This document shows, one piece after another, positions 3,263-62,980 of a stretch of 64,000 nt of DNA (position 1 is its first letter; the number at the start of each line of letters is the position of its first letter). The notes under the pieces were generated by a model. It worked only from the letters and a program-made list of their open reading frames with translations, was not told the DNA's origin and searched no databases. The stretch is from Butyrivibrio sp. Su6. Lineage in GTDB: Bacteria; Bacillota; Clostridia; Lachnospirales; Lachnospiraceae. The translations under genes were made by a program, and so were the position numbers. The stretch covers positions 62,001 through 126,000 of the forward strand of contig NZ_FNUR01000006.1 in assembly GCF_900108105.1 (NCBI RefSeq), read 5' to 3'.

Positions 3263-5203
3263 ATGGCAGAAACAAAACAGATAAAAGCAGGTCCCGGTGG
3301 TGGAAACAGACGTGGAATGCCAAGACCTAAGGTACAAAACCCCGGTGCTTTATTTAAAAGAATAATGGGATATGTTTTTAAATACTATCCTTTACATATG
3401 ATAACTGTGCTTGTTTGCATACTGTTAACAGTATTTTCAAGCGTTCAGGGAACTCTTTTTACAAAGACACTTATTGATTCCTACATTCAGCCAATGCTTG
3501 ACAGTGGAAACAGTGACTACGGCCCACTTCTTGCTGCAATGGGAAGAGTTGCGATATTCTATGGAGTAGGTGTGATCGCAGCTTTTGTTCAGGCAAAGGT
3601 CATGATCTACATAAACCAGGGAACACTAAGAAAACTCCGTGAAGAGCTCTTTGTCCACATGGAGAGTCTTCCTATAAAGTACTTTGATACAAATGCCCAT
3701 GGCGATATCATGTCAATCTACACCAATGATATTGATACATTAAGACAGATGATAAGCCAGAGTATTCCACAGATGCTCAGCAGTGCGATCACAATCGTGA
3801 GCGTTCTGATCTCTATGGTTGTGCTCAGTATTCCATTGACTCTGATAACTCTTTTGATGGTTGGAATTATGCTGTTTTGCTCAGCTAAGGCCACAAAAGC
3901 TTCAGGTAAAAACTTCGTGGCTCAGCAGAAGAACATTGGCTCATTAAATGGTTATATTGAAGAGATGATGACTGGTCAGAAGGTAATCAAAGTATTCAAT
4001 CATGAGCAGGAAGCAATCGAAAAATTCGATGAGCTCAATCAGCAGCTTTATGAGAGTTCCTTTAAGGCTAACGGCTTTTCCGGTGCTCTTGGCCCGATAA
4101 ATGCTCAGCTTGGTAATACAAGTTATGTTATCTGCGCCATGATAGGTGGTGCGATAGCTCTTTCTGATTCAGTTGCTGTTGGCTTCACTGTTGGTGCTCT
4201 TGCAAGTTTCCTTACTTTCAATAAGAGCTTCTCAATGCCTATCAACCAGGTAAGTATGCAGTTTAACTCAATCATAATGGCACTTGCAGGTGCAGAGCGT
4301 ATTTTCAGACTTCTTGATGAAAAGCCTGAGACAGATGAAGGATATGTAACCTTGGTTGATGCAGAAATCAAGGACGGACAGGTTGTTGAAGCAGATCATC
4401 ACACAGGTCACTGGGCTTGGAAGCATTATCACAAGGCTGACAACACTACAACCTATCAGCCAATGGAAGGTGATGTTACATTTAATGGCGTAGACTTTGG
4501 TTATACAGATGAAAAGATGGTTCTTCACGATATCGTCCTTCACGCAAAGCCTGGTCAGAAGATTGCCTTTGTTGGTTCAACAGGTGCAGGAAAGACAACA
4601 ATCACTAACCTTATCAACAGATTTTATGATATTCAGGATGGTAAGATCAGATACGACAACATCAATATCAACAAGATCAAAAAAGCTGACCTTCGCCGTT
4701 CACTTGGTATAGTTTTGCAGGATACACATCTTTTCACAGGAACTGTGCGCGACAATATCCGCTATGGAAAGCTTGATGCCACAGATGAAGAGGTAATTGC
4801 AGCAGCTAAGCTTGCAAATGCTCACAGCTTTATTAAAAGACTTCCTGAAGGGTACGACACAATGCTTACAGGTGATGGAGCAAACCTCTCACAGGGCCAG
4901 CGCCAGCTCCTTGCTATCGCCAGAGCTGCCATTGCAGACCCGCCGGTGCTTATACTTGATGAAGCTACTTCATCAATCGATACAAGAACAGAGAAAATTG
5001 TTCAGGACGGTATGGATAAGCTCATGAAGGGCAGAACTACCTTTGTTATTGCCCACAGACTTTCAACTGTCAAAAACAGTGACTGTATCGTAGTTCTCGA
5101 GCAGGGCCGCATCGTTGAGCAGGGAACTCACGATGAACTCATTGCCAAGAAGCAGCGTTACTACCAACTCTATACAGGAAATAAGGCAGAGGAAACTGCA
5201 TAA
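3263..5203 (+). CDS. ABC exporter half-transporter with canonical ATP site
   Basis: This is the partner of the preceding half-transporter. A six-helix domain spans about residues 40-340, and an ATPase domain about 410-630. The catalytic residues are canonical: Walker A GSTGAGKTT with Lys444, signature LSQGQRQLL, Walker B LILDEATSS with Glu567, and switch His598 (IAHRLST). A charged His/Trp-rich insert (TGHWAWKHYHK) lies between the two domains, as in related Lachnospiraceae exporters. An in-frame ATG at 3257 overlaps the upstream stop, but AGAGAGG ends only one base before it. The ATG at 3263 has a seven-base spacing and is preferred, giving 646 residues. Together the two genes encode a heterodimeric exporter in the cytoplasmic membrane. 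Confidence 0.9.
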   Translation: MAETKQIKAGPGGGNRRGMPRPKVQNPGALFKRIMGYVFKYYPLHMITVLVCILLTVFSSVQGTLFTKTLIDSYIQPMLDSGNSDYGPLLAAMGRVAIFYGVGVIAAFVQAKVMIYINQGTLRKLREELFVHMESLPIKYFDTNAHGDIMSIYTNDIDTLRQMISQSIPQMLSSAITIVSVLISMVVLSIPLTLITLLMVGIMLFCSAKATKASGKNFVAQQKNIGSLNGYIEEMMTGQKVIKVFNHEQEAIEKFDELNQQLYESSFKANGFSGALGPINAQLGNTSYVICAMIGGAIALSDSVAVGFTVGALASFLTFNKSFSMPINQVSMQFNSIIMALAGAERIFRLLDEKPETDEGYVTLVDAEIKDGQVVEADHHTGHWAWKHYHKADNTTTYQPMEGDVTFNGVDFGYTDEKMVLHDIVLHAKPGQKIAFVGSTGAGKTTITNLINRFYDIQDGKIRYDNININKIKKADLRRSLGIVLQDTHLFTGTVRDNIRYGKLDATDEEVIAAAKLANAHSFIKRLPEGYDTMLTGDGANLSQGQRQLLAIARAAIADPPVLILDEATSSIDTRTEKIVQDGMDKLMKGRTTFVIAHRLSTVKNSDCIVVLEQGRIVEQGTHDELIAKKQRYYQLYTGNKAEETA

Positions 5204-5220
5204 AAGAAAAATGTGAACAA

Positions 5221-5255
5221 AAAAACCAGTAATGACGCAGTCATTACTGGTTTTT
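5221..5255. terminator. Bidirectional intrinsic terminator
   Basis: A perfect 16-base stem (5221-5236 with 5240-5255) and a three-base loop GCA has A-tracts on the left and T-tracts on the right. It lies between the exporter operon and the convergent cheY, so it can end transcription from both sides. Confidence 0.9.
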
Positions 5256-5275
5256 TGAAATTCGCAAAAGTATTA

Positions 5276-5638
5276 TTATCCGATGGCTTTTTTAACGGCC
5301 TCAAGAACACGGTCAGCCTGGAAAGGCTTAACGATGAAGTCCTTTGCACCAGCCTGAATAGATTCTATAACCATTGCTTGCTGACCCATAGCAGAGCACA
5401 TAATACAAACCGCATTAGGATCCGCAGCCTTAATTCCCTTTAGGGCTCCAATACCATCAAGCTCGGGCATTGTGATATCGAGAGTTACAAGGTCGGGTTT
5501 CAACTCATTATATTTTTCGATTGCGATCTTTCCGTTCTCTGCTTCGCCGGCAATCTCATATCCATTCTTGGAAAGGATATCCTTAAGCATCATACGCATG
5601 AAAGCGGCGTCATCAGTAATGAGTATTCTTTTTCCCAT
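5276..5638 (-). CDS. cheY: CheY-like single-domain response regulator
   Basis: This 120-residue protein is a bare receiver domain. The acidic pocket is Asp9/Asp10 (ILITDDA), the phospho-acceptor is Asp54 (VTLDITMPELDG), the switch residue is Ser82 and the conserved Lys is Lys104 (FIVKPF). No output domain is present. In Firmicutes such CheY proteins bind the flagellar switch, but a role with the adjacent pilus-like operon is also possible. It is transcribed away from the exporter and starts at an ATG with a GGAGG site eight bases upstream (on + strand, cctcc at 5646-5650). A weak extended -10 (TGTTACAAT on the minus strand, near 5721-5729) lies in the 176-base spacer upstream. A CheR methyltransferase lies elsewhere in the window at 37103. 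Confidence 0.88.
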   Translation of the reverse strand: MGKRILITDDAAFMRMMLKDILSKNGYEIAGEAENGKIAIEKYNELKPDLVTLDITMPELDGIGALKGIKAADPNAVCIMCSAMGQQAMVIESIQAGAKDFIVKPFQADRVLEAVKKAIG

Positions 5639-5814
5639 ATTGAACCTCCAATAAGTAATTTAGTATGAGACAATTAAAACAATTTCTTTTTAAAATTTAA
5701 TGTAGTTCAGTACATAATCTATTGTAACACAACATTTTAAAAATAAGCGTTAAATCGTTATGCAAATAATTAAAATTTGATAAAGTCTCTGAGAAAAATA
5801 TTTTAACAATTAAA

Positions 5815-6225
5815 TTAGTTTTGCTTAACGGGAAGTGAGTAATCATACTCAAAATCCTCGTGGATAACGATTTGCCACTGTTTTATGCTGTAGAAATTGT
5901 TTGAAATGCTCAAATTGTTTGCAGTATTAGTAGTTATCGTAATATCAAGAGATTGATTATCGGTAATTGGTATACTTTCTTTTATTATACCATCAACCAT
6001 TCCTAAATCATACCCTGAATTTACTGCCGCAAGAAAAGCATTTCCTTGGTGACAAGCATTATAGTATATTCGTTCACGTTCTGCAAGCTTATTGCTTAAA
6101 GTGTAGTCTGCCCTTGAGTTTACAAGGGAAAGGCAGGCAAACGATATGAGACTTAGAACTGTAAAAATAAGTAAAATGGAGGCACTTCCTACATGGGCGC
6201 CCGGTGGTCTTTGACTTCCTGCCAT
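5815..6225 (-). CDS. Small pilin-like membrane protein (PilX/GspK-like N-terminus)
   Basis: This 136-residue protein begins with a short polar stretch ending in Gly13, then a hydrophobic helix (about residues 14-36, SASILLIFTVLSLISFACL) and an extracytoplasmic part with few motifs. A small N-terminal basic or polar leader before a single helix is the layout of minor pilins such as PilX or GspK. The usual Glu at position +5 is missing, so the assignment rests mainly on context. It is the last gene of the minus-strand operon that carries a pseudopilin and a PilC/GspF platform, and it starts three bases after the preceding gene ends. I do not recognise the C-terminal domain. Confidence 0.6.
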   Translation of the reverse strand: MAGSQRPPGAHVGSASILLIFTVLSLISFACLSLVNSRADYTLSNKLAERERIYYNACHQGNAFLAAVNSGYDLGMVDGIIKESIPITDNQSLDITITTNTANNLSISNNFYSIKQWQIVIHEDFEYDYSLPVKQN

Positions 6226-6228
6226 TAT

Positions 6229-6750
6229 TTATCCTCCTATGTATGTGTCAACAGATATGCTGTGGATAACATTTGGATCGTCATCAGAGGCTTCAAGAAG
6301 TGGTTCAGAAAGCTTCCTGACATCTATGATCTTGATTGTGCCGCAGATGGCGTTTCCTTTGAGCTTTACATTATATTTTGTAACATCCGAGTATGCTTCA
6401 CCTGCAGGTATCTCTTTGGTACTCAGTATTGCCTCAAAAGAAGCTTTTGCTGAATTGCCATCCATGTATTCCCAGTTATCATCAAAAAAGATTATGAGAT
6501 TTTTGTCTGAAAGAAATGCAGAAGGGTAGGATCTTCCGATTTCATGTATATCGCCTTTTGCGCTGACAAAGCTTTCTGCAAGGGACTGGGACCATGTGAC
6601 AGCATGATTTAAATTTACTGTTCTGTCAGCCATCTCATGGGATGCTACAAAAAGTTTTACGCATACTGCTGCAGAAAGTGAAAAGAAAAAAACTGCAACT
6701 ATAAGCTCCATAAGGAAAAGGCTTGTTCTTGAATTATTTCTCTGGTTCAT
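6229..6750 (-). CDS. Type IV pseudopilin-like protein
   Basis: This 173-residue protein has a prepilin-like N-terminus. A basic leader (MNQRNNSRTS) is followed by LFLMELIVAVFFFSLSAA, in which Glu15 falls at +5 if prepilin peptidase cuts after Ser10. The residue before the cut is Ser rather than the usual Gly, which is unusual but tolerated in some systems. The rest is a soluble domain of about 135 residues that would sit outside the membrane. It directly abuts the gene upstream at 6751 and is three bases from the gene downstream at 6225, so translation is probably coupled. It likely forms part of the filament or its tip; the specific role is not clear. Confidence 0.7.
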   Translation of the reverse strand: MNQRNNSRTSLFLMELIVAVFFFSLSAAVCVKLFVASHEMADRTVNLNHAVTWSQSLAESFVSAKGDIHEIGRSYPSAFLSDKNLIIFFDDNWEYMDGNSAKASFEAILSTKEIPAGEAYSDVTKYNVKLKGNAICGTIKIIDVRKLSEPLLEASDDDPNVIHSISVDTYIGG

Positions 6751-7245
6751 TTAGTTTTCCTCTGTGCTTCTTTTGGCTATATAGACGGCTTCGTTCTCGC
6801 CATCAGCTAATACGATATTTACAGATAAAAGAGCTTCCGACGCATAGGAAACATCAAAAGAGTGGATTTCTAGGATCTTCTGACCTGATTGCGGATAGAA
6901 GCTTGTCAGATCCGCTCTTGCATAAAGCTCCATAAGATATCCGTTGTAGTCATAAATATAAGTGTTATATAAAGTTCCATTGACTTCCTCTTGCAAAACA
7001 AGAGTGTTCTGACCGAAGAGGTTTGTGACAAAGATTGCGCCATTGTTATCAGATTGTCTGACTTTTTCAGTGATATAAGCACAGGCGGTCCTGTGATCAT
7101 AGTTGCTTCCCATGGTTTCCACGTTCTTTTTGTAGATACCGGCGCCCAAAGAAATAACGGAAAGAGCAGACAGTATAAATAAAAGCATGAGACACAGTAT
7201 GAATGCCACATCTACAATATGATGTTTGTTCTTCACATATTCCAT
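6751..7245 (-). CDS. DUF4860-like membrane protein of the pilus operon
   Basis: This 164-residue protein has one N-terminal hydrophobic helix (about residues 12-36, DVAFILCLMLLFILSALSVI) and an extracytoplasmic domain. The segment NYDHRTACAYITEKVRQSD resembles the DUF4860 proteins that I recall from Lachnospiraceae type IV pilus-like operons. The function of that family is not known. No prepilin Glu at +5 is visible. The gene sits between two other small membrane proteins with spacings of 13 and 0 bases, which supports a structural role in the same assembly, perhaps as a minor pilin or assembly factor. The family name is from memory and should be confirmed by profile search. Confidence 0.6.
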   Translation of the reverse strand: MEYVKNKHHIVDVAFILCLMLLFILSALSVISLGAGIYKKNVETMGSNYDHRTACAYITEKVRQSDNNGAIFVTNLFGQNTLVLQEEVNGTLYNTYIYDYNGYLMELYARADLTSFYPQSGQKILEIHSFDVSYASEALLSVNIVLADGENEAVYIAKRSTEEN

Positions 7246-7258
7246 ATGTTTTTCCTGC

Positions 7259-7600
7259 TTAATTGTTTATTTTGATGACTGTTACATCGGGATAAAGATT
7301 CGAGGCAATGGGCTGGTAATCCACAAAAAAAGTGGTTTTGTCATAGGTAAGTCCGTAATGATCTTCAAGATATGACAGATCCGGTGGATACATTCCCTCG
7401 ATCGCATAGCACTGCACAATATCCCTGGCTAAAGCGCTCTCCAGCGACTCCTGCTGCTTTTCAATAGTGTTTTTTCCTGACGCGTCAACAGCAAAGTAAA
7501 ATAACAGGATAATAGCAGCAAAAATGACTGCAGAAAGAACCCTGTATACGCTATCTGATATGTTTAAAATTTTGCTTTTCTTTTCAAACCTGTTTGTCAT
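7259..7600 (-). CDS. Small single-helix protein of the pilus operon
   Basis: This 113-residue protein of unknown function has a basic N-terminus, one hydrophobic helix at about residues 20-42 (VLSAVIFAAIILLFYFAV) and a short outside domain containing CYAIEGMYPPDLSYLEDHYG and FFVDYQPIASNLYPD. The pattern YPP-x-L-x-Y-L resembles the small exposed domain of some minor pilins, where a first strand follows the helix, but the canonical prepilin cleavage motif is absent. It starts four bases after the PilC/GspF gene ends and continues the same operon. I do not recognise a named family with certainty. Confidence 0.65.
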   Translation of the reverse strand: MTNRFEKKSKILNISDSVYRVLSAVIFAAIILLFYFAVDASGKNTIEKQQESLESALARDIVQCYAIEGMYPPDLSYLEDHYGLTYDKTTFFVDYQPIASNLYPDVTVIKINN

Positions 7601-7604
7601 TTAC

Positions 7605-8660
7605 TTATCCTATAGATGTCATGATGCCCATAAGCGGCATGATTACTGATAAAAGGATCATTCCTACTATTATGGAGAGTATTATTACCAAAGTCGGTTC
7701 TATGATAGAGATTATTGATGAGATCTTTCTCTGGGTCTCACGCTCAAATCTGTCAGCAATCTGTTTCATTGCCTTATCCATTGATCCGGATTTGAATCCA
7801 ACATCCACCATCTGTGCATAGAATGATGTGAATATTTTTGAAGCTAAAAGAGCTTCCGGAAAAGAGCTTCCGTCAATGAGCAATTCTTTACACTTGTCGA
7901 TTTTCTCTTTCATTTCATTTGATTCCACAAGCTTTTTTACCAGGGCGAGACCCTCAAAAGTGTCCATGCCACTTGAAAGAGTCAGGACCATTCCGCTTGC
8001 AAAACGCTCGCTTTCAAGCTCTTGCATAAGCTTTTTGGTCGGTGCGAATCTGCCGATGAATTTTCTGAATGCCTGGCGGCCTGAGACGGTATAAGTGATA
8101 TAGAAAAATAAAATTGCCAAAAGAACCAGAATCGCTACGAGTATAAAGGAGTATCTGTTAAGGATATTTCCCAGACTTAAAAGTGACTGGGAAAAACCGC
8201 TCATTGCAGTTCCAAGCTGAGCAAAGACCTGCTCGAAAATAGGAAGGACCTTTAAGACAAGTACCAGCACAACCACAAGCATCATAAATACCATGACGAG
8301 AGGGTAGCTGATGGCACTTTTTATACTGGATTGTATACTGTCTTCCCTTTCGTAGTAGTCGGCAAGAGAGTCCATAACTACATCTATGTTTCCGGATTCT
8401 TCACCGATCGTTACCATGTGAGAGACATAATCCGGGAAAACTCCGCTCATAGTCAGGGCAACATGGAATTTTTCGCCGCTCCTTAGGACCTGACTGATAG
8501 AACTAAGGATCTCTTTTATGGAAGCGTCATCAGTGTCCTGAGTTAGTATCTCAATGCTGTCAGAGGGAGCAATACCGGCCCTTAAAAGAAGAGCAAGCTG
8601 CCTGCAAAAGCTTGATATTTCGTAGCTGTTTAGCTGTTTGATTTTTCTTTTTGTTTTCAT
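7605..8660 (-). CDS. Type II secretion / type IV pilus platform protein (GspF/PilC family)
   Basis: This 351-residue inner-membrane protein has the two tandem T2SSF domains of the family, at about residues 15-140 and 215-340. Recognisable segments include SFCRQLALLLRAGIAPSDSI, LRSGEKFHVAL, IGEESGNIDVVMDSLADYYE and VDVGFKSGSMDKAMKQIADR. Membrane helices lie near 120-150, 170-190 and 315-345. The protein anchors the assembly ATPase and moves pilin subunits into the filament. It is the clearest functional marker of this operon. No assembly ATPase (PilB/GspE) or prepilin peptidase lies nearby; the only ATPase of this type in the window is PilT at 49393. The length is slightly shorter than typical PilC proteins (about 400), mainly at the N-terminus. 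Confidence 0.88.
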   Translation of the reverse strand: MKTKRKIKQLNSYEISSFCRQLALLLRAGIAPSDSIEILTQDTDDASIKEILSSISQVLRSGEKFHVALTMSGVFPDYVSHMVTIGEESGNIDVVMDSLADYYEREDSIQSSIKSAISYPLVMVFMMLVVVLVLVLKVLPIFEQVFAQLGTAMSGFSQSLLSLGNILNRYSFILVAILVLLAILFFYITYTVSGRQAFRKFIGRFAPTKKLMQELESERFASGMVLTLSSGMDTFEGLALVKKLVESNEMKEKIDKCKELLIDGSSFPEALLASKIFTSFYAQMVDVGFKSGSMDKAMKQIADRFERETQRKISSIISIIEPTLVIILSIIVGMILLSVIMPLMGIMTSIG

Positions 8661-8670
8661 AATCCATTCC

Positions 8671-9663
8671 CTAATAGATGTATTTTACGGAGTAATTTGA
8701 TCCGTCTCCAATAAAGCTCTTTAGTTCTTTTTCATTGACATTGGATGCAAAGGTTGGATCCATGAGTGACCACTCTGTTCCGTCAAACTCGATGATTCCG
8801 TTGACCCAGCCAACATCTGTTATATAGGTGCTTATCCATGCGTGATAAGCAGTTCCTGCGTAGCCGACTTCCATTCTGGTAGGGATCCTCTGACTTCGCA
8901 GCATGCTGCTCATAAGTACTGCATAATCAAGACAGATTCCTTTTTTAGTTGAAAGAACTTCATCAATATCAGGAATATAGCCGCTTTGAACGGTTTCGGC
9001 TTCTGTGTAGTCGTAGGTGATGTTGTCAATCATAAAGTTGTAGACTGATGAGACAACTTCCAGGTCGTTGTTGCAGGAATAACTGAGCTCCTGTCCCTTG
9101 GAAATAGCCGCATCATCTTTTGTGAAATTGACATATTGATTGGGATATAAAAAAGGTGAAAATTCATTGGAAATATTTACCTCGACCATCTGGGAAAAGA
9201 CCATGGAATACTGAGTCTTTTCTATGTTCTCATAAACATTTACAAGGTATTCACCATTGCCTGACTGAAGAGGGAAAACCTCATCAGTGGGAGTCTGTGA
9301 ATTTAGATTATAAGTATATGTAGTCTCATCAGGTCCTGTTATCTGCAGCTTGACCTTGGGCGATTCGCCGGTATATCTGACGATCACGTATCCTTCAGAA
9401 GAGTTGGAAGCATCAAGATGAGCAAATTCATTCTCATATGTAACAGTTCCGCTCGCTTCAGGAACAAGGCAAACAGGAGTATTATCCCTGGCGCCCTTTA
9501 CAGGAGCAGAAGCTGTACTTACTTCCTCTGATCCGGAACTTGAGTCAGAGGGAATAGTGCGAGACTCAGAAACAGTTTCACTGCTTCCACACCCTGAAAG
9601 AATAAACAGGATCATGCCTGAAACTATAAATATTTTTTTATCAAAAAAACGATTAATCTTCAT
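8671..9663 (-). CDS. Lipoprotein with transglutaminase-like domain
   Basis: This 330-residue protein has a lipoprotein signal peptide (about residues 1-24) ending in the lipobox LSGC. A Ser/Glu-rich linker and a beta-rich region (about 70-160) come next. The C-terminal domain carries the transglutaminase-like triad in order: Cys in KKGICLDYAVLMSS, His in GTAYHAWIS and Asp in WSLMDPTF. Such domains act as cysteine peptidases or cross-linking enzymes, and in Gram-positive bacteria they are often attached to the outer membrane face. Its place between a PHP phosphatase and the pilus platform gene, with gaps of about ten bases, suggests a surface role linked to the pilus, but the substrate is unknown. 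Confidence 0.82.
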   Translation of the reverse strand: MKINRFFDKKIFIVSGMILFILSGCGSSETVSESRTIPSDSSSGSEEVSTASAPVKGARDNTPVCLVPEASGTVTYENEFAHLDASNSSEGYVIVRYTGESPKVKLQITGPDETTYTYNLNSQTPTDEVFPLQSGNGEYLVNVYENIEKTQYSMVFSQMVEVNISNEFSPFLYPNQYVNFTKDDAAISKGQELSYSCNNDLEVVSSVYNFMIDNITYDYTEAETVQSGYIPDIDEVLSTKKGICLDYAVLMSSMLRSQRIPTRMEVGYAGTAYHAWISTYITDVGWVNGIIEFDGTEWSLMDPTFASNVNEKELKSFIGDGSNYSVKYIY

Positions 9664-9672
9664 TATTATATT

Positions 9673-10506
9673 TTACAATAGTTTGTGTGCTGTGGGGATT
9701 CTTTTTTTGAAGGTGTAGTATTCGGTGAATCCACAGTCTTTGACAATATCTGTCATGACATCAAAATGCGTCGCAACTCTGTCGGGAGTGTGGGCATCTG
9801 AGCCAAAAGTAATTATCTTTCCGCCCATTTCCTTATATCTTTTTATTATTTCAGGGCATGGATTGGGCAAAAGATCCATATCCGCATATGCAAGGACTTT
9901 TGAGTTCAGATCCAGTCCCTTGTCATTCTTTATAAGATGCTCAAGGATCGCATCGATCTTTTCACTATATCTTTTGTAGGAATAGGTATCATCGCCCTCG
10001 GGAACATAGCGGGATATATAATCAAGGTGCCCAAGAACGTCAAAGTCCGTGAATTTCGTGATGTTCTCCAGGGTTTCATCAAAATACTTATTGAAAATAT
10101 TATCCACAGTATCAGCTTCCCAAAAGTCGCTGTAGAAAGGGTCTCTTTTATCTAACAGATGTTGTGAAGCTATAACGAAATCAAAATCATGCTCTTTGAC
10201 AAATTCAAGATTTTCTTTTACGCAGTCATCCTGCATTCCTACTTCAACGCCAAATCTGATAGTTATCTGGTCCTTATATTTATTATTGTAGTAAGAATAT
10301 TCTTTATAATAAGCATCAACATCAAGCATAAATGGGTCCGGTGGAAGATCCGGTAAAAGAGGGTAATTCAGGTCCAGGTGCTCTGTGAAACAGATCTCGC
10401 TAAGTCCCTGCCTGATAGAAGATAAGATCATCTCTTCCATTGGCGCCTGACTGTCGCCTGAATTGTGGGTGTGCATGTGATAGTCCGGTGGAAGTAATTT
10501 ATTCAT
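9673..10506 (-). CDS. hisJ: Histidinol-phosphatase-like PHP family phosphoesterase
   Basis: This 277-residue metal-dependent hydrolase has the PHP-domain motifs in order: DYHMHTHNSGD (first metal ligands), CFTEHLD, FGVEVGMQ, DFVIASQHLL, VLGHLDYISRY and TFGSDAHTPDRVA. The order and length match the HisJ/HisK type of histidinol phosphatase, which removes phosphate from L-histidinol phosphate in histidine synthesis. No other his gene is near, so the true substrate may be another phosphoester. It is the first gene of the minus-strand pilus-like operon and ends nine bases before the transglutaminase lipoprotein gene starts. The link to that operon may be only transcriptional. Confidence 0.82.
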   Translation of the reverse strand: MNKLLPPDYHMHTHNSGDSQAPMEEMILSSIRQGLSEICFTEHLDLNYPLLPDLPPDPFMLDVDAYYKEYSYYNNKYKDQITIRFGVEVGMQDDCVKENLEFVKEHDFDFVIASQHLLDKRDPFYSDFWEADTVDNIFNKYFDETLENITKFTDFDVLGHLDYISRYVPEGDDTYSYKRYSEKIDAILEHLIKNDKGLDLNSKVLAYADMDLLPNPCPEIIKRYKEMGGKIITFGSDAHTPDRVATHFDVMTDIVKDCGFTEYYTFKKRIPTAHKLL

Positions 10507-39040: not shown

Positions 39041-39174
39041 GTTTCTTTGTCGGCATTCAGCTGACATGAATCACGGAAATTCTTCCGATGATTTTCCACT
39101 TTTAATTTATTGACGACGCTTGCATGGGGCGTGTTTGTGCCTTTTTGCGAGCAATTACAGAAAGGGACATTGTT

Positions 39175-41697
39175 ATGAATTTTAGAGGAAAATGGGACAA
39201 ACAAAACAATTCGGTTAAGCTTTTGCTAAAAAAGCTTAAGAGGCACGACACGCTTGTGGTGGCAGTTGCGGTCATTATTGCGCTTGTGCTATGTGGAGGC
39301 CTGATCTACATCAGTACTCCTGTGGCTATGGCTACAGCAAAAGAAGAGTTTGCTGAAAGTGAGAAAGAGAGTAAAGAAGCAACAAATGAAAAACTTGATG
39401 AACTCCATGAGTATTTGACAGAGCTTGATAAAAGCATTGTTGACAGTAAAAATGGTCTTGATTCTTTTTATGAGCTTACAAAAGAGGATAAGACAAATGA
39501 GCATATAACTGAGAAAGTTACGACTCTTGGTGGTAATTTGAAAGAACTCCATAGCGAGGTGATTCAGACAGATAGTCAGATCCAGAATATGAAGGAGCTT
39601 ATTGAGAAAAACGGAGGCGAGAATAAGGAGAAACTCAATCAGGAATTTAGCCAGGTTTCTGAAAGATTTAATCAGATAGAAAATAATTATTCCAAGGCCC
39701 AGACTGACAATAAAGAGCTTATGGATTCAATTAAAAATCTTATAAAGAGCAACGACACGAAGATGACAGGAGAGAATCTCAAGCAGTACACTGATCTTGT
39801 CACAAAGCTTTCTGATCTTGATAAGAACTTTACAACGGATATGGGCAAGTCTGTAGATCTTTTGGAAAAGAATATAAAAGAGCTTAACGAGGCCACTGAA
39901 AAGAGACTTGCAGAGCTGGATAAAACAACAAGCAGTAAGCTCGATGAGATGAATACATCCACGAAGAATAAGCTGGATGAAATGAATACATCCACAAAGA
40001 ATAAGCTCGATGAAATTGATACAACCACCAAAAATAAACTTGATGAGATGAATAACTCAACAAACAATAAGCTCAGCGAAATGGATGCATCAACAAACCG
40101 TAAGCTTGATGAGATGAATACATCCACAAACAATAAGCTCGATGAGATGAATGCATCTACTAACAGCAGACTTGATGAAATGGGCAATTCTACTAATAGT
40201 AAACTTGATGACCTGGATAAAAGAACCGGCAGCAAATTGGATGAGCTTGGGAAAAACACTAATAATAAGCTGGATGAGATAAATAAGGCGACAAATGACA
40301 GATTAAATTCCATGGACAAGTCTACAAGCGACAAACTGGATTCTATGGATAAATCCACAAACAGCAAGATTGATGCAATGGGTAAGTCAACAAACAGCAA
40401 ACTTGATGCTATGGATAAGGCTACCAGCAGTAAACTTGATGGAATGAACAAGACAAATACAAACAAGTTTAATGAGCTCAACACATCGATAAATAACAAC
40501 TTTAAAAATATTACCAATACTTCTTTGAACAACACAAATGGTTTAAAGAGCTATATAACAACTGAACTTAATAAAACAAACGGAAAGATTGATAAGGTTT
40601 TTCAGCGTGTGAGTGATGGCAAAAAGCTATTGGCATCCACATTACTCACTAAGGGCGTTAAAGTCAGACAGGATGCCACATTTAAGGAACTTAGCGATGC
40701 TATAAATAAGATCCCGCAGCAGGTTGTCTTGGGAAATGGTGATGTTGCAGGCAAAGTTGAGTATGAATATCACTATCATAAGGATGGCGCCGGAAGAGTC
40801 TGTGATGAAGAATATGTTCCGGCTAATCGAAAAGGTGGATGTTACAACGTTTCAGTGACTCATAAGCATACTGACAGCTGTTATAAGATTGAGTACTGGT
40901 ATTCATATAGAACAAGAAAAGACTGCGATAATCTGTATCACGTGACAGACCGTGATAACGGCGATGATCCTATCTTCAGATGGCGTTGTAATTATTGTGG
41001 ATCGGAATATGACTCTGATGACGGTTACCATTCAGAATCCACTACAGATATCAATGTCTTCCGTGACAGAGGTAAGAGCGATCCTGAAGTGCATATGAAT
41101 AAGATAAAAATATGTAAATATGAGGATGGACAGCTTTTGGGATACCGCCCATCCTGTGGTTATGTACACGGACAGATACTGAAAGCACATATTTCTTTTA
41201 ACCAGAATTATAAGGACTATAACAGTACAGTGAATGTGCCTAGTCCAAGGAATGTAATGACTTCACACATGATGGTTTCTGATAAGACAATGGATCTTGA
41301 AAGCCTTTTTAAGGGATTTGAATTCTCTGATGATGGAAGTGCTGTATTTAAAGTGCCGATAGATGAGAGCACGGAAGGAATGTCTGATGCAAAAGAAATG
41401 TCGCCTATCGAGAGCTTGGATGAAAAGAAAAGTGAAGAGGCGGCACATGAACAGAGTACAATGGACAATTCTGGAAAAAATCTGAGTATTCAGGAAAATA
41501 ATTCTTCAAATCAAAATGATTCATCAGCGCCGGAATCTATAGCACAGGAGAGCAGTTTGATTGAAAGCTCCTTTGATAATTATGAAATTTCTGAGAACAA
41601 TACTCAATATGATGACGGAGTTAAAGAGGAAAAAGAAGAAGCAAACGATGCAGCGTCTACTGATTGCGCATCTGATCAGACTACTGATAATGAATAA
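39175..41697 (+). CDS. Membrane-anchored coiled-coil stalk protein with tail-fibre-like module and Cys/His-rich head
   Basis: I do not recognise this 840-residue protein as a whole. A basic cytoplasmic N-terminus (1-24) and one helix (about 26-47, VVAVAVIIALVLCGG) put the rest outside the cell. A charged coiled-coil region (about 55-240) is followed by 18 consecutive 11-residue repeats of the type KLDEMNTSTKN (244-441). A small segment with DGKKLLASTLLTKGVKV and DATFKELSDAINKI (about 479-513) resembles a motif I know from phage tail-fibre and tail-like proteins. A Cys/His-rich region (543-661) contains CNYCG, HKHTDSC and several spaced Cys, possibly metal-binding or disulfide-linked. The tail (about 715-840) is Ser/Glu/Asn-rich. 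Start ATG 39175 has AAAGGGA; an upstream ATG at 39124 lacks a site. It stands alone, between a Gx transporter and a COG0523 gene. Confidence 0.85.
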   Translation: MNFRGKWDKQNNSVKLLLKKLKRHDTLVVAVAVIIALVLCGGLIYISTPVAMATAKEEFAESEKESKEATNEKLDELHEYLTELDKSIVDSKNGLDSFYELTKEDKTNEHITEKVTTLGGNLKELHSEVIQTDSQIQNMKELIEKNGGENKEKLNQEFSQVSERFNQIENNYSKAQTDNKELMDSIKNLIKSNDTKMTGENLKQYTDLVTKLSDLDKNFTTDMGKSVDLLEKNIKELNEATEKRLAELDKTTSSKLDEMNTSTKNKLDEMNTSTKNKLDEIDTTTKNKLDEMNNSTNNKLSEMDASTNRKLDEMNTSTNNKLDEMNASTNSRLDEMGNSTNSKLDDLDKRTGSKLDELGKNTNNKLDEINKATNDRLNSMDKSTSDKLDSMDKSTNSKIDAMGKSTNSKLDAMDKATSSKLDGMNKTNTNKFNELNTSINNNFKNITNTSLNNTNGLKSYITTELNKTNGKIDKVFQRVSDGKKLLASTLLTKGVKVRQDATFKELSDAINKIPQQVVLGNGDVAGKVEYEYHYHKDGAGRVCDEEYVPANRKGGCYNVSVTHKHTDSCYKIEYWYSYRTRKDCDNLYHVTDRDNGDDPIFRWRCNYCGSEYDSDDGYHSESTTDINVFRDRGKSDPEVHMNKIKICKYEDGQLLGYRPSCGYVHGQILKAHISFNQNYKDYNSTVNVPSPRNVMTSHMMVSDKTMDLESLFKGFEFSDDGSAVFKVPIDESTEGMSDAKEMSPIESLDEKKSEEAAHEQSTMDNSGKNLSIQENNSSNQNDSSAPESIAQESSLIESSFDNYEISENNTQYDDGVKEEKEEANDAASTDCASDQTTDNE
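39904..40497 (+). repeat. Eighteen 33-base coding repeats (11-residue repeats)
   Basis: The stretch encodes 18 gapless 11-residue units (residues 244-441), with consensus K-L-D-E-M-N-x-S-T-N-x. The hydrophobic residues sit at positions 2 and 5 of each unit, and the last six positions are rich in Asn, Ser and Thr. Eleven-residue periodicity is the hendecad pattern of slightly right-handed coiled coils, as in stalks of surface fibres. Units 2 and 3 are identical in protein, and the DNA varies at third positions, so the array is old rather than newly expanded. Confidence 0.9.
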
Positions 41698-41717: not shown

Positions 41718-41747
41718 TTGACATTCATTTGTGGGCTGCTATAGAAT
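41718..41747 (+). promoter_or_regulatory. Promoter of the COG0523 metallochaperone gene
   Basis: A perfect TTGACA (41718-41723) lies 16 or 18 bases before TATAGA (41740-41745) or TAGAAT (41742-41747). Transcription would start near 41754, about 50 bases before the start codon. Confidence 0.6.
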
Positions 41748-41786
41748 AGACCTTGTTGTAGTAGTTATAGCACAGATAATGAATGT
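41721..41786. promoter_or_regulatory. Nested inverted repeats over the COG0523 promoter
   Basis: ACATTCATT (41721-41729) matches AATGAATGT (41778-41786), and inside it TGCTATA (41737-41743) matches TATAGCA (41766-41772). The left arms overlap the -35 and -10 boxes and the right arms lie after the start point. They might bind a metal-sensing repressor, or fold in read-through RNA. No Zur or Fur consensus is recognised. Confidence 0.5.
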
Positions 41787-41802: not shown

Positions 41803-43119
41803 ATGACCAAGATAGATATTATTTCAGGATTTTTGGGAGCTGGTAAGACAACTCTTATAAAGAAGCTTTTAAAGGAAGCACTTGCAGGAACTAAGGTAGT
41901 TCTTATTGAAAATGAATTTGGTGAGATCGGAATTGACGGCGGATTTTTAAAGGAAGCCGGAATTGAGATCACAGAGATGAATTCAGGTTGTATCTGCTGT
42001 TCACTTGTAGGTGATTTTGAGACTTCACTTAAGCAGGTTATGGAGCAGTACGCACCTGAGCGTATCCTTATCGAGCCTTCAGGAGTAGGCAAGCTTTCAG
42101 ACGTTATGAGAGCTATTCAGAATATTGCAGATACTTCTGATGATATGGAACTCAACAGCGCTGTTACTGTTGTTGATGTTTCAAAGGCAAAGGTTTATAT
42201 CAAGAACTTCGGTGAGTTCTTCATTAATCAGATTGAGAACGCCGGAACAATCATCCTTACAAGAACAGACAAGGCTGATCAGAAAAAGATCGAAGAGGCT
42301 GTAGAACTTATTCGTAAGCATAACGAAAAGGCTACTATCATCACAACTCCACTTAATGAGATCACAGGAAAAGAAATCCTTGATACATTTGAGGGCAACA
42401 ATGACCTCGAGGCAGAGCTTTTGAAGATGGTAATGGAGCAGGAAGAAGAGCATCACCATCACCATCATCACCACGGAAGCCACAAGACTGTTGCTGAGGA
42501 TGGTTCAGTAGTTTACAGTGCACACCACGATGATGACGATGATGACGAGTGCTGCTGTCACCATCACCATGACGACGATGAAGAGCATGAGTGCTGTCAT
42601 CACCACGATCATGATGAAGATGAGCATGAACACGAGCATCATCACCACCACGATCATGACGAGGATGAGCATGAACATGAGCATCATCACCACCACGATC
42701 ATGACGAGGATGAGCATGAACATGAGCATCATCACCACCACGATCATGACGAAGATGAGCATGAACATGAGCACCACCATCACCACGATCATGACGAAGA
42801 TGAGCATGAACATGAGCACCATCATCACCACCATGATGCAGCAGATGTATTTATCAGCTGGGGAATGGAGACACCTCTCAAATATACAGAGGATGAGATA
42901 AAGGGCATGCTGGCTCAGCTCGAGGATGATGAGAGATTTGGTATCGTTCTTCGTACAAAGGGCGTTGTTCCAAGCACAGACGGATCATGGATCGAGTTTG
43001 ACTATGTACCAGGTGAAGCTGATGTTCGTAAGGGCGCAGCAGATGTAACAGGTAAGTTCTGCGTAATCGGATCTGAACTTAAAGAGGAGAACCTTGAGAA
43101 GCTCTTCCGCAGACTTTGA
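41803..43119 (+). CDS. COG0523/CobW-type GTP-binding metallochaperone with His-rich repeat
   Basis: This 438-residue G3E-family GTPase has Walker A GFLGAGKTT (9-17), the metal-binding CxCC motif in NSGCICCSL (Cys63, 65, 66), Walker B region RILIEPSGVG and the guanine motif TRTDKAD. After residue 216 comes eight consecutive His, then a Cys/Asp/His stretch (DECCCHHHH) and five 15-residue repeats of His, Asp and Glu (268-342). The C-terminal CobW_C domain (about 350-438) has WGMETPLKYTEDE and VLRTKGVV. Such proteins deliver Zn, Co, Ni or Fe to enzymes using GTP, and the His repeat can buffer metal. The start at 41803 follows TGGAGA. The gene is next to a second COG0523-like gene, and metal-dependent control is likely but not shown. 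Confidence 0.93.
   Translation: MTKIDIISGFLGAGKTTLIKKLLKEALAGTKVVLIENEFGEIGIDGGFLKEAGIEITEMNSGCICCSLVGDFETSLKQVMEQYAPERILIEPSGVGKLSDVMRAIQNIADTSDDMELNSAVTVVDVSKAKVYIKNFGEFFINQIENAGTIILTRTDKADQKKIEEAVELIRKHNEKATIITTPLNEITGKEILDTFEGNNDLEAELLKMVMEQEEEHHHHHHHHGSHKTVAEDGSVVYSAHHDDDDDDECCCHHHHDDDEEHECCHHHDHDEDEHEHEHHHHHDHDEDEHEHEHHHHHDHDEDEHEHEHHHHHDHDEDEHEHEHHHHHDHDEDEHEHEHHHHHHDAADVFISWGMETPLKYTEDEIKGMLAQLEDDERFGIVLRTKGVVPSTDGSWIEFDYVPGEADVRKGAADVTGKFCVIGSELKEENLEKLFRRL
42604..42828 (+). repeat. Five 45-base tandem repeats encoding His/Asp/Glu units
   Basis: Five head-to-tail 45-base units encode HDHDEDEHEHEHHHH. The DNA copies are nearly identical, differing at a few third positions, which points to recent duplication or frequent slippage. 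Copy number may vary among strains and so alter metal-binding capacity. Confidence 0.9.
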
Positions 43120-43157
43120 TAGACAGAAGTTAAGCGATTATGATAAGGAGAATGAAT

Positions 43158-44099
43158 TTGAAACCAGTATATATAATCAATGGCTTTCTCGACAGTGGAA
43201 AGACAGATTTCTTCAGATATACAATTGCACAGCCTTACTTCAGAACAAAAGGCAAGACTCTTTTGATCGTCTGTGAGGATGGCGAGAATGATTATGAGGA
43301 AAAGCTTCTTAAATCTACAAACACTGTTATTGAGAAAATAGAAGACGAGGAAGACTTTAATCCGGATGCGCTTATTGCACTTGATGCAAAGCACAATCCT
43401 GAGAGAATCCTTGTTGAGTATAACGGAATGTGGAACTTTAAGAACTTAAAGCTCCCTGTAATGTGGAATCTTGAGCAGCAGATAACTGTAATAGACGCTT
43501 CAAGTTTTGAACTGTATTTCAACAACATGAAGTCTCTTCTTGCAGAGCAGATCAGAAATTCTGACCTTATTTTATTCAACCGCTGCGATGGAATTGAGGA
43601 CCTTGCTTCTTATAAGAGAAATGTTAAGGCTATCAACCAGAAGGCTGATATTATCTTTGAAGATAGAAATGGTGAAGTGGACGTAACTCTGGATGAGGAT
43701 CTTCCTTTTGATCTTAATGCTAATCCTATCGATCTCAACAACTATGGCTATGGAATGTTCTATCTTGATGCTCTTGACCATGTTGACAGATATGAAGGCA
43801 AAACGGTCAGATTTAAAGGTATGGTGCTTAAGCCAACAGAGTTCCCTGAGAACCGCTTTGTTCCGGGAAGAATGGCAATGACATGCTGCGCGCAGGATAT
43901 GCAGTTTTTGGGCTTTGCATGTGAGTATGACAAGGTAGCTGACCTTAATGAAAAGGATTGGGTCCTTGTTACTGCAAAGGTTGAGAAGCAGTATGTTGAG
44001 GAGTATCAGGGCGAAGGACCTGTTCTTAAGGCTATATCAGTTGAAAAGACAACAGAACCTGATAATCCGGTAATAGATTTTTCGAATCCGGAACAGTAA
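43158..44099 (+). CDS. COG0523-like GTPase fused to a DUF1980/TIGR03943-like domain
   Basis: This protein of about 313 residues begins KPVYIINGFLDSGKTDFFRY, a P-loop with the G3E form, and has LILFNRCDG as a guanine-specificity-like motif. The CxCC motif of its neighbour is absent and the Walker B region reads ILVEYNGMW, so it is divergent. The C-terminal part (about 205-300) has YEGKTVRFKGMVLKP, FVPGRMAMTCCAQDMQFLGF and WVLVTAKVE, which match the C-terminal domain of the DUF1980/TIGR03943 (YcgQ-type) proteins often linked to zinc. The start is uncertain: ATG codons at 43140 and 43152 are blocked by, or too close to, AAGGAG (43145-43150), while TTG at 43158 has a seven-base spacing. It follows the His-rich COG0523 gene by 38 bases. 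Confidence 0.82.
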   Translation: MKPVYIINGFLDSGKTDFFRYTIAQPYFRTKGKTLLIVCEDGENDYEEKLLKSTNTVIEKIEDEEDFNPDALIALDAKHNPERILVEYNGMWNFKNLKLPVMWNLEQQITVIDASSFELYFNNMKSLLAEQIRNSDLILFNRCDGIEDLASYKRNVKAINQKADIIFEDRNGEVDVTLDEDLPFDLNANPIDLNNYGYGMFYLDALDHVDRYEGKTVRFKGMVLKPTEFPENRFVPGRMAMTCCAQDMQFLGFACEYDKVADLNEKDWVLVTAKVEKQYVEEYQGEGPVLKAISVEKTTEPDNPVIDFSNPEQ

Positions 44100-44121: not shown

Positions 44122-45099
44122 TTGTTTAATTATTTACCACATCAGTGGCTTTTTCTATTCTATCTATACAGCTTTTTTGGGTGGTGCTTCGAATCCACTT
44201 ATGTATCTATATTAAATAAAAGGTTTGTAAACAGGGGCTTTATGCGAGGCCCCTTTTTACCTTTATATGGCAGTGGCGGGATAATGATGCTTGTTGTATC
44301 AAAGCCCTTTTATTCCAATATACTTTTGGTCTATCTGGCAGGATGCGTTGGTGCTACAGCCCTTGAATACGTTGTGGGCGTTTTGATGGAACTGCTTTTT
44401 AAGGTTAGATACTGGGACTATTCGGATAAGTTCCTTAATATCAATGGGCATGTATGTCTTGAATCCACACTTGTTTGGGGATTTTTCACTGTTGTTTTCA
44501 CGCATTATCTTCAGATTCCTGTGGAAAACTTCATAATGTCCATACCTTACAATTTCCTCACTGTTTTTACAACGGTGCTAACTGTTTATGTGAGCTGCGA
44601 TTTTATGGTGGCCTTTAAGACAGCCATCGATCTAAGAGATTTCCTTGTATATATGGAAAAAGCTAAAGAAGAAATGGGCAAAATGCAGAAGAGACTCGAT
44701 GTTATCATTGCCTTTAAGGGCGAGGATGTTCGTGAGACCATTGGTCAGAGAGTAGATGGCATAAGCTCAGAAATTGGTAGTAGAGTAGAAGTTTTGAGCT
44801 CTGGAATTGGCAGCAGAGTAGATGTACTTAGTGGAAAATTGGAAAAATCTTTCGCCGGTTTAAAAGAAAGGCTCTATCATGATCCTTCTCCAAGCATGTT
44901 AAATGTAAGAGAAGAGGTTGGCGAAATGTATGCAAAGTACCGTATCCTTATGGATAGGCTTGCTCCAAAGCCAATAAGAGGCTTCTTTGAATGGTATAGA
45001 AACAGGACTATTCTTGGTAACCCCGGAATGGTTTCGGGTAAGTTTAAGACAAGCTTGGAAGAGATAAAAGAAAAAGCTGCAAGCTTTAGAAAGAAATGA
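44122..45099 (+). CDS. Putative ABC-permease-like membrane protein (DUF1113/CmpB group)
   Basis: This 325-residue protein has five or so helices in its first 190 residues, with HQWLFLFYLYSFFGWCFEST, RGFMRGPFLPLYGSGGIMML and LECVVGVLMELLF-like segments (here LEYVVGVLMELLF). This matches the putative ABC transporter permease group (PF06541). The C-terminal 135 residues are soluble and coiled-coil-like, with two or three near repeats of IGSRV-DVLSSGI. The start is a TTG at 44122, six bases after GGGGGG. It is third in a unit with the two COG0523 genes, but no sequence feature ties it to metals. A bidirectional terminator follows. Confidence 0.75.
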   Translation: MFNYLPHQWLFLFYLYSFFGWCFESTYVSILNKRFVNRGFMRGPFLPLYGSGGIMMLVVSKPFYSNILLVYLAGCVGATALEYVVGVLMELLFKVRYWDYSDKFLNINGHVCLESTLVWGFFTVVFTHYLQIPVENFIMSIPYNFLTVFTTVLTVYVSCDFMVAFKTAIDLRDFLVYMEKAKEEMGKMQKRLDVIIAFKGEDVRETIGQRVDGISSEIGSRVEVLSSGIGSRVDVLSGKLEKSFAGLKERLYHDPSPSMLNVREEVGEMYAKYRILMDRLAPKPIRGFFEWYRNRTILGNPGMVSGKFKTSLEEIKEKAASFRKK

Positions 45100-61027: not shown

Positions 61028-62980
61028 ATGCAATATAATATTTATTTTGATATTTGCGCATTATTTATATTGATCACTATCGCTGTTACTTCCATGTCGA
61101 GAAGAGCTGTGCCTTCCTATCGACAGAGAGCTTACAGTGCGCTTTATTTTGCCATTTTCATGGCGACTTTGTGTGAAAGAATAGAAACATATCTGCAGAT
61201 GCATCCTCTGACCTTTTCTGAGTACGGCATTCTTGAAAAAATAGCCGGAAGTACTTTTTTCTTTTTCCATCTTGGGTCAGCAGTTTTTTATCTTTTATAT
61301 ATCATGTCTGTATTGGATATTTATGTGCCTATAACCACCTGGAAAGGCTTTTGGTATCTCTGGTTCGGGTATATTATCTGCACAGTTCTTTTAGTGGTCA
61401 ACTGGTTTGAGCCGATCCTGTTCAGCTACTCTGTAGACGGTATCTATCACAGGGGTAAATACCTTTTCCTCTTTTATATCATCGCAACGTATTATCTGAT
61501 TGTCAGCCTTGTTTTGTTGTTAAAATATAATAATCTCATGCGCAGAAGGACAAAGGTGGTTGTGGCATCATATGTTCTTTTTGTTCTTGCAGGAATACTG
61601 ATCCAATACTTTTATCCAACTCTGCTTGTCGAGAATTTCTGTAATACCATCAGTGTGACCTTTATTTATATAACCCTTCAAAATCCCAGTGAGATGGTAG
61701 ATGAAGTCCTTGATATCCTTAATAAAAAGGCTTTTCTGGAGGGACATGATCTTAAGACAAAAAGAAAAGGAGAGCACTTTACAATCTTCCTTACCATAAA
61801 AAATATCCGTACTCTCAGTGATGAGATTGGCTATGGAAATGGACAGGATGCGCTTAAGACCATAGCAAAGTATTTAAAGAGTGTAGGCCGCAGGGAACTA
61901 CACCTTATTACCTATGCTTACAGATATTCCGAGTATGTATTTGCTTTGACTGTTCATACAGATGATGCAGATAAAGCAAAGGCTTTGATGTATAAGATTT
62001 CTTACAGGATGCGTGAACCCTGGAGTTTTGGCAACATGAAGCTGAAAGTGGACGGGCAGCTCTTTTTGCTTCATTATCCTGTACATTACAAGACTACAGC
62101 TGATCTCATAAACAAGATAGAGATGATGGTTGAGCATGTAAACGATGACCACAATCTTATTATTGATGTGGATAAGGTTGACTTTGAGGCTATCAGAAGA
62201 GAAAGCGACTATGATAATCTTGCGAGGGGCAATCTCGACAGCAAGCTGGCGACAATAAAGTTCCAACCATTTTTATCCAAGATCTATAAGATCAATTATT
62301 GTGCTGATGTACTTTGTTTCCTTCATGATGCAGCCGGAAACGAAATTGATATGAGGGGAAAGATTCCTGATATTAAAGTTACTCAGGCACTTATGGACGC
62401 GGATGAGTTTGTTTTCAGAAGGGCTTGCAGGGCGCTTTCATTTTGGAATGCCGGCGACAAAAACGGCAAATACAGGGCTGTTGTCGCAATGTCTCAGGGT
62501 GAAATATCAAAGAATGATTTCATAAAGCGTATAAAGAAAATACTGCGCGAAGAGAATGCTGTAGCATCATGGATCAGCATCAAGCTCACTGAGACAACAA
62601 TTTCTACCATGAACTCCATCGCTGAGCGAAATATAAAGATGCTTGGCGATTTAAAGAGCTCTATCATTGTTGATAAATTTGGAAGCGGCTATGGAGACCT
62701 CAACAGAGTACTCTCACTCCCAGTTTCCCAGATTAACTTAGACAGCTCAATCCTTCACTCTGCCATGGAATCTGAGAAGATGATGCTGGTCGTACAGGGC
62801 ATTGTCAATCTTTTCCATGACATAAGCATATTTGTCTGTGCCACAGATATTGAGAATGAGACAGACAAAAAAATGGCTGAAGAGCTGGGTTGCGACTATC
62901 TTATCGGAGATTATATGGGAGCTCCGATGAAGGATAGTTCTTACGTTAAGTTTATTGATGCATATTTTGAGGAAAATTGA
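61028..62980 (+). CDS. Seven-helix membrane protein with degenerate GGDEF and EAL domains
   Basis: This 650-residue protein starts with seven membrane helices (about 1-220), ending at ITLQNPSEMVDEV, then a GGDEF-like domain (about 225-380) and an EAL-like domain (about 400-650). Both catalytic motifs are lost: GGDEF reads YSEYVF, EAL is replaced (VLCFL), DDFGTGY reads DKFGSGYGDL, and the AEGVE region reads CATDIEN. It probably does not make or break c-di-GMP, but could bind it or sense a ligand by its membrane part. CTGGAG at 61015 supports the ATG at 61028, not an earlier one at 60998. A truncated paralogue with the same seven-helix layout follows two bases after its stop. Confidence 0.85.
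   Translation: MQYNIYFDICALFILITIAVTSMSRRAVPSYRQRAYSALYFAIFMATLCERIETYLQMHPLTFSEYGILEKIAGSTFFFFHLGSAVFYLLYIMSVLDIYVPITTWKGFWYLWFGYIICTVLLVVNWFEPILFSYSVDGIYHRGKYLFLFYIIATYYLIVSLVLLLKYNNLMRRRTKVVVASYVLFVLAGILIQYFYPTLLVENFCNTISVTFIYITLQNPSEMVDEVLDILNKKAFLEGHDLKTKRKGEHFTIFLTIKNIRTLSDEIGYGNGQDALKTIAKYLKSVGRRELHLITYAYRYSEYVFALTVHTDDADKAKALMYKISYRMREPWSFGNMKLKVDGQLFLLHYPVHYKTTADLINKIEMMVEHVNDDHNLIIDVDKVDFEAIRRESDYDNLARGNLDSKLATIKFQPFLSKIYKINYCADVLCFLHDAAGNEIDMRGKIPDIKVTQALMDADEFVFRRACRALSFWNAGDKNGKYRAVVAMSQGEISKNDFIKRIKKILREENAVASWISIKLTETTISTMNSIAERNIKMLGDLKSSIIVDKFGSGYGDLNRVLSLPVSQINLDSSILHSAMESEKMMLVVQGIVNLFHDISIFVCATDIENETDKKMAEELGCDYLIGDYMGAPMKDSSYVKFIDAYFEEN

Follow-up and report, generated by a model that had tools for sequence, protein, structure and literature searches.

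A candidate stalked surface fibre of Butyrivibrio with a tail-fibre-like module and a divergent Cys/His head

Does a long repeat protein that carries a segment reminiscent of phage tail fibres belong to a phage, or does it serve the bacterium that encodes it? This question is raised by a gene of Butyrivibrio sp. Su6 (Lachnospiraceae), located at 39175-41697 on the forward strand of the window analyzed here, a stretch of 64,000 nucleotides (nt) that covers positions 62,001 to 126,000 of contig NZ_FNUR01000006.1. The open reading frame (ORF) extends from an ATG at 39175 to a stop codon at 41697 and encodes 840 amino acids (aa), in which a basic N terminus, a hydrophobic segment, a stalk, a tail-fibre-like module, a Cys/His head, and an acidic tail follow one another. 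Butyrivibrio species are abundant rumen fibre degraders, and their attachment and phage encounters are poorly known. The account that we lean toward is of an exported, rod-like surface fibre of Butyrivibrio with a membrane base, a coiled-coil stalk, the module as a joint, and a metal-braced, changeable binding head. The arrangement of parts suggests a bacterial surface fibre that shares its build plan with the fibres by which phages grip their hosts.

Distribution, export signal and stalk

Conserved in its genus and present as a single copy in its own genome (one match), the gene is not the orphan that an earlier note on this DNA, made from its letters alone, had taken it for. A plain protein search recovers it from 49 of 60 Butyrivibrio genomes besides its own and from 0 of 38 genomes of other genera, and a profile search from 40 of the 48 Butyrivibrio genomes that are at least 90% complete (its own included), a few of these matches being partial. 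Outside the genus, the search of other Lachnospiraceae that the note had proposed does yield relatives: a 244-residue profile matches 8 of 248 family genomes, a module profile 6 of 248, and a head profile 5 of 296, with no head match in 297 genomes drawn from the phylum. A relative from another genus (G420) is complete by eye, from hydrophobic segment through coil and module to head; other relatives outside the genus keep hydrophobic segment, coil, and module and differ in their distal parts (by eye). The G420 gene (L119, 3230-7990) lies directly 3' of two genes that encode an MBOAT O-acyltransferase and a GDSL lipase, a combination familiar from the O-acetylation of polymers. The 840-aa protein has no Pfam or NCBIfam match above the family cut-offs, in keeping with the note's remark that it knew no named family of this architecture, and the portions of the literature searched, PMC5217386 among them, contain no description of it that we found.

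At its start, the basic N terminus (39175-39255, residues 1-27) carries the motif QNNSVKLLLKKLKRHDT, which is common to most Butyrivibrio relatives. The stretch shared with relatives begins at 39175, and an in-frame ATG is also present upstream, at 39124. A paralogue of this N terminus was not found in the same genome at an E value below 0.2. Next comes a single strongly hydrophobic segment (39256-39312, residues 28-46; mean hydropathy of 2.96 over 19 residues), the one N-terminal helix of the earlier description, which may be a signal anchor or the core of a signal peptide. It is found in 52 of 59 aligned rows, the remaining rows being mostly truncated or masked. Directly behind it, STPVAMATA (39313-39339, residues 47-55) offers a possible signal peptidase A-x-A site, and an A-x-A occurs within 16 residues after the segment in 44 of the 52 rows that have one (window included), compared with 36% of shuffled 16-mers. 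Because of this excess, cleavage of the segment as a signal sequence is no less possible than its use as a membrane anchor. The protein is probably exported.

The predicted coiled-coil stalk (39340-40584, residues 56-470) contains no proline and would measure about 60 nm as a continuous helix, at 1.5 Angstrom per residue. It includes a hendecad array (39901-40527, residues 243-451) of 18 gapless 11-residue units (NKLDEMNTSTN-like), as counted earlier, plus a degenerate 19th unit. At lag 11, residues 241-460 have a self-identity of 0.55 (1000 shuffles reach at most 0.18); hydrophobic residues recur with a period of 3.67 (11/3), and Tandem Repeats Finder detects the array as a 33-bp (base pair) repeat. 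The minus strand opposite the array holds a 282-aa antisense frame (39687-40535), which is most likely a by-product of the 33-bp repeat and not a gene. We reject the hendecad as a defining feature, as some orthologues use 18-residue or 7/14-residue repeats. In a 50-row stalk set, where one genome appears twice (L013 and L072) and one row lacks a stalk (L053), self-similarity peaks at a lag of 11 or 22 in 17 rows, of 18 in 10, of 7 or 14 in 15, and at another value in 8, many of these peaks being weak; of the 17 rows with a self-identity of at least 0.25, 8 (window included) have a lag of 11 or 22, 3 a lag of 18, and 6 a lag of 7, 14, or 21. Rows with runs of N were excluded from the set of 50 stretches, from this repeat survey, and from the comparison of synonymous divergence below. 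Stalk length in relatives ranges from about 225 to 880 residues in uncut rows, with at most one proline each. Across these sequences, the conserved stalk feature appears to be the long helix and not the hendecad, and the helix would assemble into a coiled-coil oligomer.

Three other families that share the amphipathic repeat composition of the stalk were rejected, namely Apolipoprotein (55.1 bits against a cut-off of 90), the anti-phage protein ZorA (17.4 bits against a curated cut-off of 250), and phage tape measures, whose PHROG matches (best, 6.8e-14) fall on the stalk repeats and were judged a low-complexity resemblance. Trimeric autotransporter adhesins such as YadA and UspA1 have a long coiled-coil stalk, a distal head, and repeat-based length variation, and in these traits they resemble the fibre. 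The fibre differs in its N-terminal hydrophobic segment and its unrelated head, and the C-terminal beta-barrel translocator of these adhesins was not found, the C terminus being acidic and of low complexity, with no Pfam match there.

Phage kinship of the module and nature of the head

Between stalk and head lies the tail-fibre-like module (40585-40716, residues 471-514, from KIDKVFQRVSDGKK to FKELSDAINKIP). When modules are scanned singly, 16 of 46 match phrog_26419 (tail fiber protein) at an E value of 0.01 or less (best, 5.5e-5), and 11 of 46 match phrog_35286. The module of one relative (L050) is 44.7% identical (E value, 3e-4) to part of QHZ54126.1 from Paenibacillus phage phiERICV, a protein composed of a Phage_tail_fib (PF12571) domain, the module, and a Kelch head, and encoded after “phage tail protein I.” When 46 cell modules are compared by profile with three phage or prophage modules, the probability is 97.8%, which counts as support and not as independent proof, because all three phage rows were found via searches with this family. 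In addition, all three orthologues tested have a further repeat (ILSGKTAYVNG... AGYYDSITV) between module and head, which matches the phage families phrog_13589 and phrog_38337 (E values of 1.4e-12 to 4.8e-8). By these matches, the module family is related to the modules found in phage tail fibres; a phage origin of the module is unproven.

The likeness to the phiERICV tail fibre extends to the position of the adapter module, which in both joins a proximal part to a distal globular head. However, the phage protein is a virion protein encoded in a tail operon, with another N terminus, no long hendecad coil, and the Kelch head. Among the matches outside the genus, one (L092) sits in an apparent prophage tail operon (by eye). 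Another relative, L089, adjoins apparent pilus-assembly genes (by eye), and a Pfam scan of one of its neighbours gave nothing. In G043, the fibre gene (L053, 5612-7486) falls into two frames where the module begins, a broken or recoded copy.

The Cys/His head (40747-41202, residues 525-676) contains the CNYCG and HKHTDSC region, present as first described, as are the two motif segments before it. Eleven positions (H533, H535, C556, H563, H565, C569, C605, C608, H619, C647, and C661) are Cys or His in 41 to 47 of 47 sequences, in an alignment whose rows were collected by a profile of the same region. This alignment (A2) holds the window and 46 other rows and omits L039, L040, L053, and L072 of the 50 stretches; A3 omits L071 as well, and A4 consists of 34 rows, a hand-picked subset to which L053, L105, and L106 were added. 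Cys pairs of the zinc-ribbon or rubredoxin type (C605, C608, C647, and C661) are kept in 44 to 46 of the 47 sequences, and matches to the rubredoxin family itself reach E values of 0.26 or worse.

AlphaFold2 models the head alone with a predicted local distance difference test (pLDDT) score of 94.3, and a longer model scores 92 to 98 per ten-residue block across alignment residues 71-200. Against solved structures, Foldseek returns nothing with an E value below 0.49 for either model; its partial NrdR matches have a probability of 0.60 to 0.69 over 37 to 40 columns and are not among the best 50 of 247 for the head-only model. Against viral models, the best E value is 0.012, with an unusable root mean square deviation. 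The head was not found in the 50,697 phage records and the viral contigs searched, and one phage-side search gave nothing below an E value of 0.05, its matches lying over polymerase or hypothetical genes. The eleven conserved residues possibly brace the head around a metal, with zinc as the obvious candidate; bound metal would be a likelier use of them than disulphides, because the organism is an anaerobe and the head would lie outside the cell.

The same Cys/His motif set recurs, sometimes in tandem, in other secreted-looking Lachnospiraceae proteins (by profile and by eye), so the head seems to belong to a wider Cys/His motif group that has no assigned name. Three such cases (L113/L120, L115/L121, and L114/L122) share the HxHxG...GGGCYxxPV and CGKxxxTVExYxLxCGK motifs with the head and differ in that no stalk or module is seen, with tandem motifs in L113 and L115. 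In L122 (G445:C1) and L118, a glycine-rich domain accompanies the motif set (PF12810 ALK_LTK_GRD in L122, by eye in L118). Heads of this type also terminate secreted fibre-repeat proteins, with several alternative copies in one genome (by eye). One stretch (L105, G060:C3:178000-189000) encodes, at 3819-7759, two adjacent secreted-looking proteins with near-identical N-terminal parts and different Cys/His heads (by eye); their fibre-repeat part has three weak phage matches (E values of 3e-3 to 2e-2).

Another stretch (L106, G348:C26:36000-50000) contains, at 4206-10394, several partial frames on both strands, each with an “AGYY” fibre repeat and a head variant, of which five pass the head profile and more are seen by eye. 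Nearby are genes that resemble resolvases and IS66, one for a protein with collagen repeats, and one for a T2SSE-type ATPase. As read from these frames, the array looks like a shufflon-like store of alternative tips. Shufflon pilus-tip proteins of the PilV type combine a constant shaft with an exchangeable C-terminal tip, and the G348 array resembles them in its alternative AGYY-plus-head copies on both strands near resolvase-like genes (by eye). The gene in the window differs from a shufflon, as no recombinase or silent copies are seen beside it.

A divergence island over head and tail

Comparison of closely related genomes reveals a divergence island that spans head and tail (40747-41697). 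Between the window and G050, 120-nt blocks starting from 40800 to 41640 are 0.45 to 0.73 identical, compared with 0.91 for the module block and 0.98 for the block starting at 41760, the first wholly past the stop codon. The synonymous difference per site (pS) between the two is 0.89 in the head (nonsynonymous, 0.26), 0.13 in the N terminus, 0.41 in residues 57-240, and 0.26 in the module, and nine neighbouring genes or gene parts range from 0.10 to 0.45, all below the head. Pairwise comparison covered 37 heads from 51 sources supplied. The synonymous divergence of the head exceeds that of the CobW genes downstream in eight of nine close pairs (Fisher p<1e-3), the ninth (L046/L074) having a p value of 0.019. 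By relatedness of the genomes, these nine pairs form six groups; the head excess is seen in five of them, and across the pairs that show it, the module stays near the level of the flanks.

The ratio of nonsynonymous to synonymous divergence (dN/dS) of the head is 0.03 to 0.08 in the three measurable pairs, which argues that the heads are constrained and still functional. For N terminus, stalk, and module, it is 0.00 to 0.11 in 11 of 12 comparisons and 0.21 in one, indicating purifying selection. The acidic low-complexity tail (41272-41694, residues 700-840), a part that is absent from the earlier description, is the least conserved and is short or absent in some relatives; its dN/dS is 0.27 to 0.73 (five pairs). 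In the head tree, G050 falls outside the window, G012, and G041 (support, 90/89), and the flank tree unites the window, G012, and G050 (support, 100/99). A clade of the window and G041, which amino acid distances had first led us to expect, is likewise rejected in the head tree (p-AU of 0.00887 in the approximately unbiased [AU] test). The overall pattern points to divergent working heads imported by recombination as the cause of the island.

In such a surface fibre, the basic N terminus and the hydrophobic segment would direct the protein into or through the membrane, the coiled-coil stalk would cross the wall and hold a compact distal head beyond the envelope, and the module would cap the stalk and join it to the head. 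The head would contact an external target, with ligand binding as its presumed function, and lineages would replace or diversify it while N terminus and module stay fixed. Our working analogy is a phage fibre or a stalked adhesin, with a constant base, a shaft of variable length, a conserved adapter, and a changeable tip.

Several observations weigh against this account. The A-x-A pattern could mean that the protein is released from the cell, and no cell wall anchor is visible in the 840-aa sequence, whose C terminus reads ...ASTDCASDQTTDNE, without an LPxTG-type sorting motif or a hydrophobic tail. A known ligand-binding domain was not found in the protein, and the low dN/dS of the head gives no signal of positive selection. 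The tail-fibre likeness claimed by the earlier note holds for the module family, but the window's own copy is weak when taken alone (E value of 0.0061 to phrog_26419) and finds nothing significant in phage records (E values of 3 to 7). The island is not strictly limited to the head either, as repeat array blocks are 0.57 to 0.78 identical to G050 and the stalk has a synonymous divergence (dS) of 1.40, although repeat misalignment may inflate the stalk divergence. Moreover, the CobW genes are possibly codon constrained, so flank divergence may be understated; the nine neighbours still fall below the head. Finally, a constraint of the head tree to unite the window, G012, and G050 is not rejected (p-AU of 0.161), which leaves head exchange unproven, and head clades mostly agree with the flank tree.

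Neighbouring genes and competing explanations

By Pfam, the neighbours of the fibre gene are LytB, CheR, NusG_II, Hpre_diP_synt_I, CobW (twice), CmpB, and LepA. The downstream order is a His-rich CobW GTPase (PF02492; 41803-43119, forward strand), a protein with a CobW GTPase domain plus DUF1980_C (43140-44099, forward strand), a CmpB-type membrane protein, and LepA. The His-rich CobW protein contains a long tandem HHHHHDHDEDEHEHE array (about 42518-42901) with a local divergence dip (0.52 in the block at 42720 against G050), and the CmpB-type protein (44122-45099) has short C-terminal 11-residue repeats (GSRVEVLSSGI GSRVDVLSGKL). A promoter-like site, TTGACA-18-TAGAAT (41718-41747, forward strand), lies ahead of the first CobW gene, which therefore need not be cotranscribed with the fibre gene; the site is a consensus match only, with 11 such sites in the region and 9.2 expected in shuffles.

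CobW proteins are zinc-linked in other bacteria, and the fibre could thus serve surface metal capture or sensing for the adjacent pair, with the head gathering zinc outside and the GTPases distributing it inside. The order of fibre and His-rich CobW gene, kept in 38 of 40 fetched loci of relatives (8 kb), and the eleven conserved Cys/His positions would fit this role. However, seven of eight fibre-less genomes still carry the CobW-DUF1980 gene, fibre and pair lie apart in G005 and G045, and the 12 kb retrieved around the fibre gene of G348 (L109) show no CobW gene. In G420, the neighbours are the acyltransferase and lipase genes, and eight stretches around module relatives from other genera hold no CobW match. 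Likewise, no Zur-like site before the fibre or CobW gene is better than shuffles, and a Fur-like match with six mismatches before CobW is equalled by 28 of 300 shuffles. With the order kept in the genus and not at the loci examined outside it, CobW persisting without the fibre, and regulatory sites not above shuffles, we reject the linkage as functional proof. The adjacency looks mostly inherited, and metal capture for the CobW pair seems quite unlikely to us.

The fibre might instead be a structural envelope component, whose coil spans or spaces the wall and whose head is fixed to a wall polymer or S-layer, with no external ligand. Its single copy, conserved N terminus, lack of a sorting signal, acidic tail, proline-free stalk, and low head dN/dS would all suit such a part; yet a head with a partner in the wall is expected to be stable among close genomes, whereas few parts of this locus have diverged as much as head and tail, and the range of stalk lengths is hard to fit to a fixed wall thickness, which makes this role improbable. 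A domesticated or decaying phage tail fibre gene would explain why the module family and the extra repeats resemble phage fibre modules. Against this stand the neighbours examined, which include no phage genes (an S1-domain-like protein is seen by eye), and the placement of the gene, which neither by Pfam neighbours nor by synteny in relatives lies in a phage or prophage tail operon and which is CobW-adjacent and widespread in the genus. Its N terminus is of the export type, which virion fibres are not known to have; in addition, N terminus, stalk, and module are under purifying selection, and the head is missing from the phages and viral contigs searched. We thus consider a phage gene very improbable and agree with the earlier note on a host-encoded gene, in which stalk, tail-fibre-type module, and Cys/His head stand in that order. 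As for the island, a high mutation rate or relaxed selection in a head of little importance could have produced it without any exchange of functional heads, as the dN/dS of the tail and the nonsignificant tree incongruence would allow. This is unlikely in our view, since the head has a low dN/dS where measurable and keeps its Cys/His set. Its synonymous sites are near saturation while those of the adjacent module and of the gene behind the stop codon are not, and relaxed protein selection alone is insufficient to account for this difference.

For the surface fibre that we favour, a tentative and rather doubtful extension is that Lachnospiraceae encode a cellular counterpart of the phage tail fibre, which shares the adapter and some tip repeats with phages and in which a metal-braced tip without a close solved relative is swapped at the module. 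If so, adapter and tip cassettes would come from a common pool that supplies both phage fibres and bacterial surface fibres. The locus offers a Cys/His domain that is modelled confidently yet has no significant match among solved structures, and a case in which related adapter modules may serve phage and cell fibres. As a stalked protein that occurs across the genus and diverges at its tip, the fibre is a candidate for a role in Butyrivibrio attachment, recognition between cells, or contact with phages.

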